This document shows, piece after piece, positions 23,813 through 28,612 of a DNA stretch of 64,000 nucleotides. Location: assembly GCF_024362485.1 (NCBI RefSeq), contig NZ_CP101456.1:3844001-3908000 (forward strand), written 5' to 3'. Numbering within the stretch: position 1 is the first letter of the stretch; each line of letters opens with the position of its first letter. Below the pieces are notes generated by a model. The model searched no databases and was not told the origin of the DNA. It was given only the letters and a program-made list of their open reading frames with translations. Origin of the DNA: Natronobeatus ordinarius. Its GTDB lineage: Archaea; Halobacteriota; Halobacteria; Halobacteriales; Natrialbaceae. The position numbers and the translations under genes are program-made.

Positions 23813-25063
23813 ATGACTGGAATCGAATACGACGACTTCCTCGACCTCGAGTACGAACCGTCAGAGACCGACCTCGTCTGTGCGTTCACGATCGACCCCG
23901 CCGACGGGATGTCGATGGAGGCGGCCGCGAGTCGCGTCGCCTCCGAATCGTCGAACGGCACGTGGGCGGCCCTCCACGTCGACGAGGACGAACTCACCCA
24001 CCTCGGTGCCGTCGCCTGCGAGATCGACGGGGGCGAGGTCACCGTGGCCTACCCCGCCGACCTGTTCGAGGCCGGGAGCATGGCCCAGATCCTCTCGTGT
24101 ATCGCGGGGAATATTTTGGGGATGAAGGCCGTGGACACGATCCGACTCGAGGACTGTCACTGGCCCGAGTCGATCGTCGAGGGCTTCCCGGGGCCGCGTT
24201 TCGGGACGAGCGTCGCGACCGAGAAACTCGACGCCGGGGATCGACCCGTGCTGGCGACCGTGCCGAAACCCAAAGTCGGTCTCTCGACGGCCGCTCACGC
24301 CCGCGTCGGCGAGGAGGCCTGGCTCGGCGGCGTCGACCTCCTCAAGGACGACGAGAACCTCACCGACCAGGGGTTCAACCCGTTCGAAGCGCGCCTGACC
24401 GAGAGCTTAGCCGCCCGCGACCGCGCTCAGGAGGAGACGGGCGAACGCAAGGACTACCTCGTCAACGTCACCGCCGAGACGAACGTGATGCTCGAGCGCG
24501 TCGACCTCGTGGCCGAGCACGGCGGCGGCTTCGTCATGGTCGACGTCGTCACGTGTGGCTGGTCGGCCGTCCAGTCGGTGCGCGAACGGGCGGAGAAACA
24601 CGACCTGGCGATTCACGCCCACCGCGCGATGCACGCCGCCTTCGACCGTTTGCCCCACCACGGCGTCTCGATGCGCGTGCTCGCCCAGATCTCGCGGCTC
24701 TGCGGCGTCGATCACATCCACACCGGCACCGCGGGCCTGGGCAAACTCGAGAACGAGGACACCCCGGGGATCAACGAGTGGCTCACCTCGGACCTCTACG
24801 GGGTGAAGCCGGTCCTCCCCGTCGCCTCCGGCGGCCTCCACCCCGGCGTCGTCGACCAGCTGCTCGAGACGCTCGGGACGACCCTCATCGTCCAGGCCGG
24901 CGGCGGCATCCACGGCCATCCCGACGGCACCCACGCGGGCGCAAAGGCGCTCCGCCAGGCCGTCGACGCCTCGGTCGCAGGGACGAGCCTCGAGGCGTAC
25001 GCCGACGATCACGCGGAACTGGCGACGGCGCTCGAGAAGTGGGGCGCCGAGACGCCGCGGTAG
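23813..25063 (+). CDS. rbcL: Form III ribulose-bisphosphate carboxylase large subunit
   Basis: A 416-residue archaeal RuBisCO. The active-site residues are all present: Lys152/Lys154 in TVPKPKVGLS, the carbamylated Lys178 with Asp180 and Glu181 in GGVDLLKDDENL, HAHRAMH (His268/270), HTGTAGLGKLE with loop-6 Lys311, ASGGLHPG and QAGGGIHGHPDG. It is shorter than form I, as expected for form III. In archaea this enzyme fixes CO2 onto ribulose bisphosphate made from nucleotides through AMP phosphorylase and ribose-1,5-bisphosphate isomerase; neither partner gene is in this window. The leaderless ATG at 23813 lies about 30 nt after a TATA-like box. Confidence 0.95.
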   Translation: MTGIEYDDFLDLEYEPSETDLVCAFTIDPADGMSMEAAASRVASESSNGTWAALHVDEDELTHLGAVACEIDGGEVTVAYPADLFEAGSMAQILSCIAGNILGMKAVDTIRLEDCHWPESIVEGFPGPRFGTSVATEKLDAGDRPVLATVPKPKVGLSTAAHARVGEEAWLGGVDLLKDDENLTDQGFNPFEARLTESLAARDRAQEETGERKDYLVNVTAETNVMLERVDLVAEHGGGFVMVDVVTCGWSAVQSVRERAEKHDLAIHAHRAMHAAFDRLPHHGVSMRVLAQISRLCGVDHIHTGTAGLGKLENEDTPGINEWLTSDLYGVKPVLPVASGGLHPGVVDQLLETLGTTLIVQAGGGIHGHPDGTHAGAKALRQAVDASVAGTSLEAYADDHAELATALEKWGAETPR

Positions 25064-25308
25064 CGGTGCCCACCGTCGGGGCCGGAACGTGAGCGCCGCC
25101 CTCGAGCGGGCGTTCACCAGCGAGGCGCCCGAGCGACGACGAACGACGGCGTCGCACCAGCCCCGCGCAGTCGGCGGCCGACTCACCCTGCGGGGGTGCG
25201 TCCGACGGCAGCGAGCCCGTCGGATCGCTGCCAGGTTGTGACCGGTCACCACCCGTGACCGAATCGAACCGTGAGAGTGAAACCGTGGGCCTGTCTCCGT
25301 GAAATCGG

Positions 25309-26514
25309 ATGGAAGACCGTGGGTTCGACCTCGACGAGCGCGTCGCCACACTCGAGGACGCGGAAACGAGGCGGACGCTTTCGCCCGTCGATCGCGTCGC
25401 CGAGCGGAGCTACTTCGCCGCACCCGCCAGCGGCGACCTTCCGGTTCTCGGAAGCGAGGAGGAACTCGTCTTCGCCTCGAGCAACTACCTCGGGCTGACG
25501 GCGGACCAGCGGGTACAGAACGCCGCCCGGCGGGCGACGGCCGTCGTCGGCACCGGTGCCGGTTCGAGTCGACTCGTCACCGGCGACACGCTCGTCCACC
25601 ACGACCTGGAGCGACTGCTCGCCGAGACGCTGGGGACCGACCGGGCGCTCGCCTTCGCCTCGGGGTACGCGGCGGCCGTCGGGACGATCACCGCCCTCGA
25701 GCCGGACGTGATCTTCGTAGACGAGTCGACTCGTTCGAGCATCACCGACGGGTGCCGGTTTTCCAGCGCGGAGGTGGTACGCTACGATCACTGTGACGCG
25801 GCCGACCTGCACGCGTCGATGGCGGAGCGAGCCGAACGAATTTCGGATGGAGAGTCGTGGCTGGTCGGTACCGACTCCGTGTTCGACGTGGACGGTACCG
25901 TCGCGCCGCTCTCGGCGATCTGTGACGTCGCCGACGAGTTCGGCGCGTGGGTGCTGGTCAACGAGACCCACGCCACCGGCCTCTACGTCGACGGCGGCGG
26001 GGTCGTCCAGGCCGAAGGACTCGAGGATCGGATCCACGTCCAGCTGGGGTCGCTCTCGACGGCGCTCGCGAGCCAGGGCGGCTACGTCGCGGGGGATGAC
26101 GCCCTCATCGAGACGCTGGTCACCGACGCCCGGTCGTTCGCCTGCTCGGCGGGTCTCGCCCCCGCTGCGGCTGCGACGGCGAGCGAGGCGCTCCACGTCG
26201 CCCGCCACAGCGACGTTCGCGAACGCCTCTGGGACAACGTCGCCCACCTCCGCGACGGCCTCGAGGCGATGGGGTATCCGGTCCTCGGCGACTCACAGCT
26301 CCTGGCAGTGTGCGTCTGTGACCGTCGCGACGCACTCGCGCTCGTCGACGGCGTCCGGGAACGGGGCGTCGTCGTCCACCCGCTTTGCCCGCCAACGGCT
26401 CCGGCGGGCGCGGGCCGGGTCCGGGTCGCCCCGATGGCGAGCCACGATCGGGACGACGTCGTCGCCTGCCTCGAGGCGTTCCAGACCGCTGGCGAAGAAC
26501 TCGGGTTGCTGTAA
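25309..26514 (+). CDS. AONS/KBL-fold protein lacking the PLP-binding residues
   Basis: A 401-residue protein that aligns with 8-amino-7-oxononanoate synthase (BioF) along its length: FASSNYLGLTAD, GTGAGSSRLVTGD, ALAFASGYAAAVG, FDVDGTVAPL and ASQGGYVAGDD. The cofactor residues are changed. The Schiff-base lysine of the T(L/F)SKA motif is Thr251 (GSLSTALASQGG), the pyridine-binding Asp of DEAH is Asn218 (VLVNETHATG), and the His that stacks on PLP (xHAS) is Arg142 (DESTRSSITDG). Catalysis by the usual mechanism is therefore unlikely. It may be a pseudoenzyme with a structural or regulatory role. No bioD, bioB or other biotin gene is adjacent. Confidence 0.75.
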   Translation: MEDRGFDLDERVATLEDAETRRTLSPVDRVAERSYFAAPASGDLPVLGSEEELVFASSNYLGLTADQRVQNAARRATAVVGTGAGSSRLVTGDTLVHHDLERLLAETLGTDRALAFASGYAAAVGTITALEPDVIFVDESTRSSITDGCRFSSAEVVRYDHCDAADLHASMAERAERISDGESWLVGTDSVFDVDGTVAPLSAICDVADEFGAWVLVNETHATGLYVDGGGVVQAEGLEDRIHVQLGSLSTALASQGGYVAGDDALIETLVTDARSFACSAGLAPAAAATASEALHVARHSDVRERLWDNVAHLRDGLEAMGYPVLGDSQLLAVCVCDRRDALALVDGVRERGVVVHPLCPPTAPAGAGRVRVAPMASHDRDDVVACLEAFQTAGEELGLL

Positions 26515-26548
26515 CGGGCCCGCTCGAGCGTCGTGGCTGACTCACGGG

Positions 26549-26710
26549 CTACGACGGCAGACTGGCCGGTGGCGTCGCCCGCTGGTCGTGGTGGGCGACG
26601 ACGAACGTCGCGAGCTCTGATTTCCGATGGTTCACTTCGAGGTGGACCTGCAGGGTTCGTTCGTCGGCGTACACGTGTTCACAGAGGGGACAGTTGTTAC
26701 TCGATGCCAC
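26549..26710 (-). CDS. Mini C2H2 zinc-finger protein (53 aa)
   Basis: A 53-residue protein starting at a GTG: ASSNNCPLCEHVYADERTL then QVHLEVNHRKSEL. The spacing Cys-x2-Cys-x12-His-x4-His is the classical C2H2 finger. The remainder is a short polar tail. It is clearly related to the gene at 26834, sharing CPLC, VHLEV and HRKSEL. Such single-finger proteins are common in haloarchaea and are presumed to bind nucleic acid or protein; the target here is unknown. GTG is the only start between the in-frame TGA and the finger. Confidence 0.6.
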   Translation of the reverse strand: MASSNNCPLCEHVYADERTLQVHLEVNHRKSELATFVVAHHDQRATPPASLPS

Positions 26711-26833
26711 GGTTGATCATCGTGTGTACAGTCATCACGTACCTACCTAAACCCATCTGTGAGCTATCGTTCGAACAGGACGTTCGGCGCGCTCTCCGCT
26801 CGCCTATCTAACCGCCGCTTCGAAGTCGACCGT

Positions 26834-27010
26834 TCACACTGTCGACGGGGGCTCGTGTCGTTCGACCGTCGGATCCGTTCTGGCGTCGAGCCCCTCGAGG
26901 ATGTATCGCGTGAGTTCGGACTTTCGGTGCTCGACCTCGAGGTGCACGCGCAGATCGCCCATCTCCTCGTACGTGTCGGTGCAGAGCGGACAGCTGTGAG
27001 AGCCAGTCAT
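26834..27010 (-). CDS. Mini C2H2 zinc-finger protein (58 aa)
   Basis: A 58-residue protein, ATG start at 27010. The finger is SCPLCTDTYEEMGDLRVHLE followed by VEHRKSELTRYILEGLDA, with Cys-x2-Cys-x12-His-x4-His spacing. It is the upstream partner of a tandem pair with the 26549 gene, 123 bp apart on the same strand, which points to a local duplication. The C-terminus is a short charged tail. No function is assigned. Confidence 0.65.
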   Translation of the reverse strand: MTGSHSCPLCTDTYEEMGDLRVHLEVEHRKSELTRYILEGLDARTDPTVERHEPPSTV

Positions 27011-27097: not shown

Positions 27098-28612
27098 TCA
27101 GAAGAAGTCGGACAGCCCTGCCTGTCCGTCCTCGGAGTCGTCGCCCCCGTCGTCGGAGTGTTCTTCGCCCTCGCCGTCGCCCCGTCCACCGGTTTCGGCG
27201 CTTGCATCAGTTTCTGCGTCGCTCGAGGACGCGAGCGTCACCTGACCGTCCGCCGCATCGCCGACGTCACCGTCGTCCGCGTCGTCCGCCCTCGAGCTCG
27301 AACCCTCGAGGAAGGCGTCTCCGGCGTGCTCGACGACCTGTTCGGCCGTCCGTTCTTCGGCGTCCTCGACGATCGACTGGACCTTCTTCGTGTCCGCGCC
27401 GCTGCCAGTGACGAACGAGACCTCCTTCGCGTCGAGGTCGTAGGCGGCGGCCATCCGAACCGTGAGGTCGCGGTTCCGGCAGTGGTGGCTCATCTCCGCG
27501 AGAAACGGCATGAGTTCCTGCCGGGCGGTCGCGACGCTCGTCCCTTCGCGTTCGGCGATCCGTTCGGCGATCGAGTCGCGGGTGTCGCGGGTCCCTCGCG
27601 TACGACCGAGCTTCGACCAGTAACTCGGCGGGCCGTAGCGCGTCCAGCCGCCTTTCGGCTCGCGGCGAGAGGCGGCGACGCCGGCGGTCATGTTGTCGGA
27701 GGCGTAGCGCCAGTAGGAGTAGTTTTGCGTGGCGCGAACGCGGCCGAGCCAGCGGTCGGCGTTCGCGAGGAACTCGTAGGCGTCGGCCAGTTCGCCGCCC
27801 TCGTAATCTTTGGGGACGTTGTCCTCGATCCAGTTGAGCAACTCGTCGGGCGTCTCGTCGACGTCGTAGGAGGCTCGCAGCGCCCCTTCGGCGTCCTCTT
27901 CCTTGATCAGCGCGTCGAGGAAGTCGAAGATCCCCGCCGTCCGGTCGCGCTCGCCCGTGACGACGTCTTCGACGGTCAGTTTCTCCGCCTGCTCGGCGAT
28001 CGCCTGCAGGTCGTTGACGGCCGATCGGAGGTCGCCCGAGGTCGACTCGGCGATCTTCCGTAAGGCCTCCTCGTCGAACTCGATTCCCTCGCGTCGGCAG
28101 ATGTCCCGCAGGACGGGGACGATCGAACGCGCGGAGACGTCGCGGAACTCGATCGTCTCACACGCCTTCCGGAGCGACTGGCTCATGTCGTAGAACTCGT
28201 TAGCGACGAGCACCATCGGCTGGCTCGCGCTCTTGACGAGCGTCGTGACCTCCCTCGAGCCGCCGTAGTCCGCCGAGCCGTGGAAGTTGTCCGCCTCGTC
28301 CAGAACGACGAGCCGCCGCCCCGCCTCGCCGCCGGTCAGCGTGCCGCTCTTTGCGGCCTCGCCTGCGACGCGCTTGATGACGTCGGCCTGGCGGTCGTCG
28401 CTCGCGTTGAGCTCCATCACGGGCCAGCCCAGGTCGTTCGCGAGCGCGTGGGCGGCCGAGGTCTTGCCGACGCCGGGGCTGCCGTGGACGATCGCCGCCT
28501 TCCGGTGGTCGTCCCAGCTCTCGGCCCACGCTTTCAGCTGATCGCGGGCCTTGTTGTTCCCCCGGACCTCCGACAGCGTCGACGGCCGGTACTTCTCGGT
28601 CCAGTCACTCAT
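27098..28612 (-). CDS. rfcL: Replication factor C large subunit
   Basis: A 504-residue AAA+ clamp-loader subunit that loads PCNA at primer-template junctions. Walker A is HGSPGVGKTSAAHAL and Walker B is VVLDEADN, with a sensor-like MVLVANEFYD segment and lid and collar helices after about residue 230. The C-terminal 100 residues are acidic and disordered and end in the PCNA-interacting box QAGLSDFF. No intein is present. The small subunit genes are not in this window. The start MSDWTEKYRP is the standard RfcL N-terminus. Confidence 0.95.
   Translation of the reverse strand: MSDWTEKYRPSTLSEVRGNNKARDQLKAWAESWDDHRKAAIVHGSPGVGKTSAAHALANDLGWPVMELNASDDRQADVIKRVAGEAAKSGTLTGGEAGRRLVVLDEADNFHGSADYGGSREVTTLVKSASQPMVLVANEFYDMSQSLRKACETIEFRDVSARSIVPVLRDICRREGIEFDEEALRKIAESTSGDLRSAVNDLQAIAEQAEKLTVEDVVTGERDRTAGIFDFLDALIKEEDAEGALRASYDVDETPDELLNWIEDNVPKDYEGGELADAYEFLANADRWLGRVRATQNYSYWRYASDNMTAGVAASRREPKGGWTRYGPPSYWSKLGRTRGTRDTRDSIAERIAEREGTSVATARQELMPFLAEMSHHCRNRDLTVRMAAAYDLDAKEVSFVTGSGADTKKVQSIVEDAEERTAEQVVEHAGDAFLEGSSSRADDADDGDVGDAADGQVTLASSSDAETDASAETGGRGDGEGEEHSDDGGDDSEDGQAGLSDFF

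Follow-up and report, generated by a model that had tools for sequence, protein, structure and literature searches.

A gene at 25309..26514 on the forward strand of the DNA analyzed here (the window, a 64,000-nucleotide stretch) raises the question of why a protein of an enzyme family should stay whole when the residues that serve its cofactor have been replaced. Opening with the ATG at 25309, the frame is uninterrupted as far as its stop at 26514 (401 codons, 401 aa). The product matched the bioF profile TIGR00858 (3.6e-88); its score of 295.8 bits is under the curated BioF cut-off of 426.45, as is the 403.8 bits of a Lys-bearing orthologue from Natribaculum (L166). Pfam aminotransferase I/II was matched as well. 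The AlphaFold model had a mean pLDDT of 87 and a pTM of 0.85, only residues 24-48 being poorly predicted, and the best Foldseek matches of the model were all alpha-oxoamine synthases (AOS), with a TM of about 0.83. The nearest relatives are 72-75% identical to the protein, which is the single homologue in the window genome (G000); no second AOS-family protein was found there. That is, the protein has the sequence and fold of the AOS family, and the complete fold and intact frame claimed in the original prediction were borne out. The gene is a former bioF, encoding 8-amino-7-oxononanoate synthase (AONS).

In alignments to KBL and SPT (serine palmitoyltransferase) structures, R142, N218 and T251 of the protein align with the stacking His, the pyridine Asp and the Schiff-base Lys of the PLP site, which confirmed the three replacements that had been predicted. 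His is present at codon 142 (25732..25734, now Arg) in 111/111 Lys-bearing homologues; Asn in place of the Asp at the pyridine nitrogen (codon 218, 25960..25962) was found in this genome only; and codon 251 (26059..26061), AAG or AAA in relatives, is ACG for Thr. Five further positions beyond the original prediction are altered, all on the same strand. N58S (25480..25482) replaces the active-site Asn of the NNYLG motif, which is N in 111/111 Lys-bearing homologues, and S193D (25885..25887) the Ser of FSMDG, which is S in 109/111, the exceptions being pathway-broken genomes. A220T (25966..25968) affects the Ala under the pyridine ring (A in 110/111 Lys-bearing homologues, S or T in 16/20 Lys-less ones), T248S (26050..26052) the phosphate-contact Thr (T in 110/111; S, A or V in 17/20), and R360C (26386..26388) the substrate-carboxylate Arg (R in 110/111; lost in 16/20).

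When the changes were counted against the 111 Lys-bearing homologues, the window protein differed at 8 of 13 active-site positions and at 14 of 120 other near-invariant positions (Fisher test, p=1.2e-4; with K251 left out, 4.6e-4). The 13 positions were drawn from known AONS/SPT chemistry, and their test repeats one on a list of 20 cofactor and substrate positions that was partly selected after seeing the data. For 12 of the 13, all but R360, we take the equivalence from AONS structures as we know them and from the alignments. R360 was matched by motif to R378 of SPT, which binds the substrate carboxylate (PMC3794620). Such a distribution bears on the explanation that the gene is a relic in late decay, in which bioF became useless after loss of its pathway and has lost its active site first, with the frame unbroken so far; drift would not focus the changes on the active site. 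An error of assembly or sequencing specific to this strain is implausible, given several separate in-frame substitutions and their recurrence in other genomes, and the completeness of the assembly (99%, in two contigs) also counts against it.

The same residues bear on another explanation, namely that the protein is a working enzyme of altered chemistry, which would carry out a new reaction with another cofactor or with PLP held otherwise than by a Schiff base. The window protein retains H221 and R372, the changes of A220 to S/T and of T248 to S/A recur across lineages, and the crystal of K265A SPT (4bmk) still holds a PLP-myriocin aldimine, meaning that Lys loss alone does not abolish PLP binding. 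However, the carboxylate-binding Arg360, Asn58 and Asn123 are also lost, and the residue standing at 251 instead of Lys (T, M, N, A, Q or S) varies by lineage, with no common new catalytic set visible. We regard an altered chemistry as improbable.

The surroundings of the gene indicate what happened to its pathway. In relatives, the ancestral order is bioB-bioU-bioF-bioD, placed between a type III RuBisCO or a dehalogenase gene and the convergent rfcL. The gene between bioB and bioF matched Slr0355, which we take to be the BioU enzyme. At the window locus, bioF is the sole operon gene remaining, a setting that the original prediction had overlooked. It lies between the large chain of type III RuBisCO (23813..25063, forward strand; TIGR03326, 4.3e-189) and the large subunit of replication factor C, RfcL (27098..28612, reverse strand; NF003228, 1.6e-263), which served as the species marker. 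By synteny, two separate deletions flank the intact gene. About 200 bp at 25062..25264 replace bioB-bioU, which take up 2.36 kb in Natribaculum L166, and about 300 bp at 26535..26833 replace bioD; tblastn at the locus found no remnant of bioB, bioU or bioD adjoining the gene. Between the window gene and rfcL there are two similar small zinc-finger-like ORFs in tandem (CPLC...H...H; 26549-26710 and 26834-27010, both on the reverse strand), the first inside the stretch that replaces bioD.

The companion biotin-synthesis genes are missing from the whole genome: bioB, bioU and bioD are absent, and no bioA was found above the cut-off. The genome carries a BioY importer, BirA and three biotin-carboxylase proteins, a gene content suggesting that the organism takes up and uses biotin without making it. 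The order of events can be read from the sister of the window genome on the RfcL tree, the Tc-Br11 MAG (G039, locus L141; support 97/97). L141 has the bioD deletion in common with the window, including the stretch with the first small ORF, and it keeps bioB, a 34-aa remnant of bioU, and the Lys of BioF. The pathway therefore broke before the Lys loss of the window gene. In relatives, bioB and bioU leave broken remnants, and the Lys-less bioF genes are unbroken. Repeated deletion of bioB, bioU and bioD on both sides of a bioF left intact argues against late decay. We also observed a recurrent intermediate in which bioB and bioF are kept and bioU and bioD are lost or remain as remnants (G023, G028, G026, G095, G041, G097, G082 and G039); bioB in these genomes may serve desthiobiotin salvage. 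Biotin auxotrophs that retain bioB alone are known to salvage desthiobiotin (PMC9561691), and they are like the window genome in retaining a single gene from a biotin pathway otherwise lost. The difference is that the chemistry of BioB is kept in them, whereas that of the window BioF, to judge from its residues, appears to be lost. Such salvage cannot explain the window BioF, since the PLP lysine is gone.

The loss is not confined to this genome. The 140 homologous loci that we compared come for the most part from 125 genomes of Natrialbaceae, the family of the window genome. Position 251 is Lys at 119 loci and T, M, N, A, Q or S at 20, the remaining locus being a fragment. On the RfcL tree, the genomes without the Lys are scattered and require at least 8 changes of Lys state; bootstrapping gave 8-9 changes, of which five are required by the strongly supported branches alone. 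The original prediction had held that canonical residues in close relatives would mean a recent loss or a sequence error in this strain only. The closest relatives of the window gene do have canonical residues throughout, so that the Lys was lost within the lineage of the window; this is nevertheless no accident of one strain, because the loss recurs independently elsewhere. Orthologues with the same three changes, for which the original prediction had proposed to look, were not found among the homologues: D218N was seen in no other homologue, and what recurs is the loss of Lys (20/140) and of His142. In the tree of the protein itself, many Lys-less rows cluster together. We read this as probable long-branch attraction, since RfcL, synteny and the shared bioD deletion place the window next to relatives that have the Lys. 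One ancient clade without the Lys was judged unlikely on these grounds, namely the scatter on the RfcL tree, the synteny of the window with Natribaculum, and a bioD deletion shared with a Lys-bearing sister.

Lys-less proteins also take other forms in the family. Those of genus g6 (L137, L138, L139, L052 and L131) are lengthened by insertions of some 40 residues or more, near residue 180 in L137-139. A highly divergent Lys-less paralogue is present in genus g12 away from rfcL (L133, 4998-6203; L136, 5001-6209), with 17/20 catalytic positions changed and an intact frame; its neighbors are a Dps-like gene and another gene that we labelled AspA/desuccinylase by eye. Five genomes carry both a Lys-less and a canonical copy (G013, G133, G134, G029 and G093). 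This coexistence would suit the explanation that the Lys-less protein is a regulatory subunit paired with a Lys-bearing paralogue, like LCB1 with LCB2, and LCB1 indeed is without the PLP lysine (PMC3794620). Against it, the window genome and most other Lys-less genomes have no second AOS-family protein. A heterodimer of Lys-less and Lys-bearing proteins was rejected for the window organism, where there is no partner gene, and we consider a paired subunit very improbable as an explanation.

Erosion of BioF tracks pathway loss. No change at any of the 20 cofactor and substrate positions was seen in 93 BioFs from complete-pathway genomes, a result partly built in, because near-invariance in Lys-bearing proteins was a criterion for the positions, some of which were picked with the data in view. 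The contrast within pathway-broken genomes and the a-priori test of 13 positions are not affected by that choice. In genomes without bioU, 19/23 BioFs are eroded, 15 of them without Lys; of the BioFs that are additional to a complete set elsewhere in the genome, 5/11 are eroded. Every Lys-bearing BioF of the family with such a change comes from a broken-pathway genome (G039, G041, G028 and G006). It was clear that the same series of events, pathway loss and then erosion, arose independently in several lineages of Natrialbaceae. Intermediates are graded, from 2/20 eroded sites in L016 and L074 up to 17/20 in L133/L136, as would also be expected of late decay. Solitude does not always bring erosion, since the solitary BioFs of genus g26 retain all residues. 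Furthermore, a solitary canonical bioF lies beside rfcL in G047, G100, G101, G102, G103, G104 and G025 (loci L024, L078, L073, L134, L096, L095 and L020); the biotin operon is elsewhere in six of these genomes and absent in G025. These solitary canonical BioFs suggest a catalytic role apart from biotin.

Whether the eroded proteins are under selection was analyzed with codon models (GY with F3X4, in our own code) on pairs that share a Lys loss older than their split. The dN/dS values after the loss were 0.082 for L032/L115, 0.103 for L034/L086, 0.087-0.111 for L137-139 and 0.166 for L052/L131; L133/L136 was saturated and left out. As controls, pairs of active BioFs gave 0.02-0.10, and RfcL of the same genome pairs gave 0.012-0.018. 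Neutrality was rejected in all four post-loss clades (2dlnL against 1 of 72-189), which span 0.6-3 neutral substitutions per codon. Sites that are invariant in active BioF rose from about 0.001-0.006 to 0.02-0.08 after the loss. At sites variable in active BioF, the post-loss values were 0.076-0.142, compared with 0.064-0.080 in active BioF. This near-active dN/dS at the remaining sites indicates that the cofactor site was released and that constraint persists elsewhere in the protein. An overlapping antisense gene was rejected as the source of the constraint, as none of the antisense frames stays open through the Lys-less genes. Purifying selection in these four clades over such divergence argues against late decay.

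For the window gene itself, the sole member of its genus in the set, dN/dS was 0.165 against a background of 0.064 on a branch that mixes time before and after the Lys loss; the branch is relaxed (LRT 12.8) and not neutral (LRT 27.3), with a similar outcome on another topology. The relaxation, and values of 0.19-0.24 at otherwise variable sites too, favor late decay, as does the small weight of an unbroken frame. No stop or frameshift was found in 20/20 Lys-less genes. The original prediction had reasoned from the lack of stops to selection, and this argument proved weak in a GC-rich gene, where stops arise slowly: with the whole window branch neutral, 2.4 stops are expected and P(none) is about 0.09, and with half of it neutral, 1.4 are expected and P(none) is about 0.24. 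The dN/dS measurement that it had proposed rejected neutrality in the post-loss clades and on the window branch. Retention of a pseudoenzyme by selection was supported for the group, the window branch being non-neutral; selection after the loss, observed in four other Lys-less clades, probably extends to the window gene, and a new role is plausible. Taken comprehensively, we regard late decay as a real possibility, though an unlikely one.

We therefore think it probable that the window gene is a pseudoenzyme derived from bioF and retained for a non-catalytic role, as recurs in Natrialbaceae. The protein is an enzyme homologue whose catalytic residues are missing, as a pseudoenzyme would be. 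The bioB-bioU-bioF-bioD operon beside rfcL lost bioD first and then bioU and bioB, with a biotin importer left and bioF alone staying; the cofactor and substrate site then eroded, under continued constraint on the remaining protein in the replicate lineages and probably here. The eroded BioF presumably forms no PLP internal aldimine and has no synthase activity, and is expected to fold as the usual AOS dimer and to serve in binding, as a scaffold or in regulation, which may already have been a side job of the parent enzyme. The erosion includes the acyl- and carboxylate-binding arginines and spares the core and the glycine-rich motifs (e.g. ALASQGG), so a protein-protein or structural role is likelier than binding of the old substrate. 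Against this explanation, G010, a 99%-complete relative, has neither gene nor pathway, meaning that the gene is dispensable. More tentatively, BioF of Natrialbaceae may have, or may readily gain, a second function that needs the folded dimer alone and that keeps the PLP-less protein after each loss of the biotin pathway.

Compared with known systems, the window protein is like haloarchaeal BioF (TIGR00858) in orthologous sequence, full length, place beside rfcL and predicted fold, and unlike it in that the Lys, stacking His, pyridine Asp, phosphate Thr and carboxylate Arg are replaced and the operon partners are gone. It resembles LCB1/SPTLC1 of eukaryotic serine palmitoyltransferase in having an alpha-oxoamine synthase fold but no PLP lysine, and probably also in being kept by selection. 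However, LCB1 forms a heterodimer with a catalytic paralogue that has no counterpart in the window genome, and it arose once by duplication, whereas in haloarchaea loss of the pathway was repeatedly followed by such a change in BioF itself. Pseudoenzymes of this fold are already known, and the replicated conversion of BioF in Natrialbaceae would be a variant of them; we found no paper on BioF pseudoenzymes in the open-access set searched.

The usual view of a pseudoenzyme is of something that arose once, long ago. In this archaeal family, the cofactor site of a single enzyme has apparently disappeared on at least eight occasions, in parallel with pathway loss. Since several stages survive and active relatives can serve as controls, the family offers a replicated natural experiment in the passage from enzyme to non-enzyme. 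For the biology of Natrialbaceae, this means that the annotation 'bioF' in a haloarchaeal genome is no proof of biotin synthesis, and it implies that BioF may have a moonlighting role.
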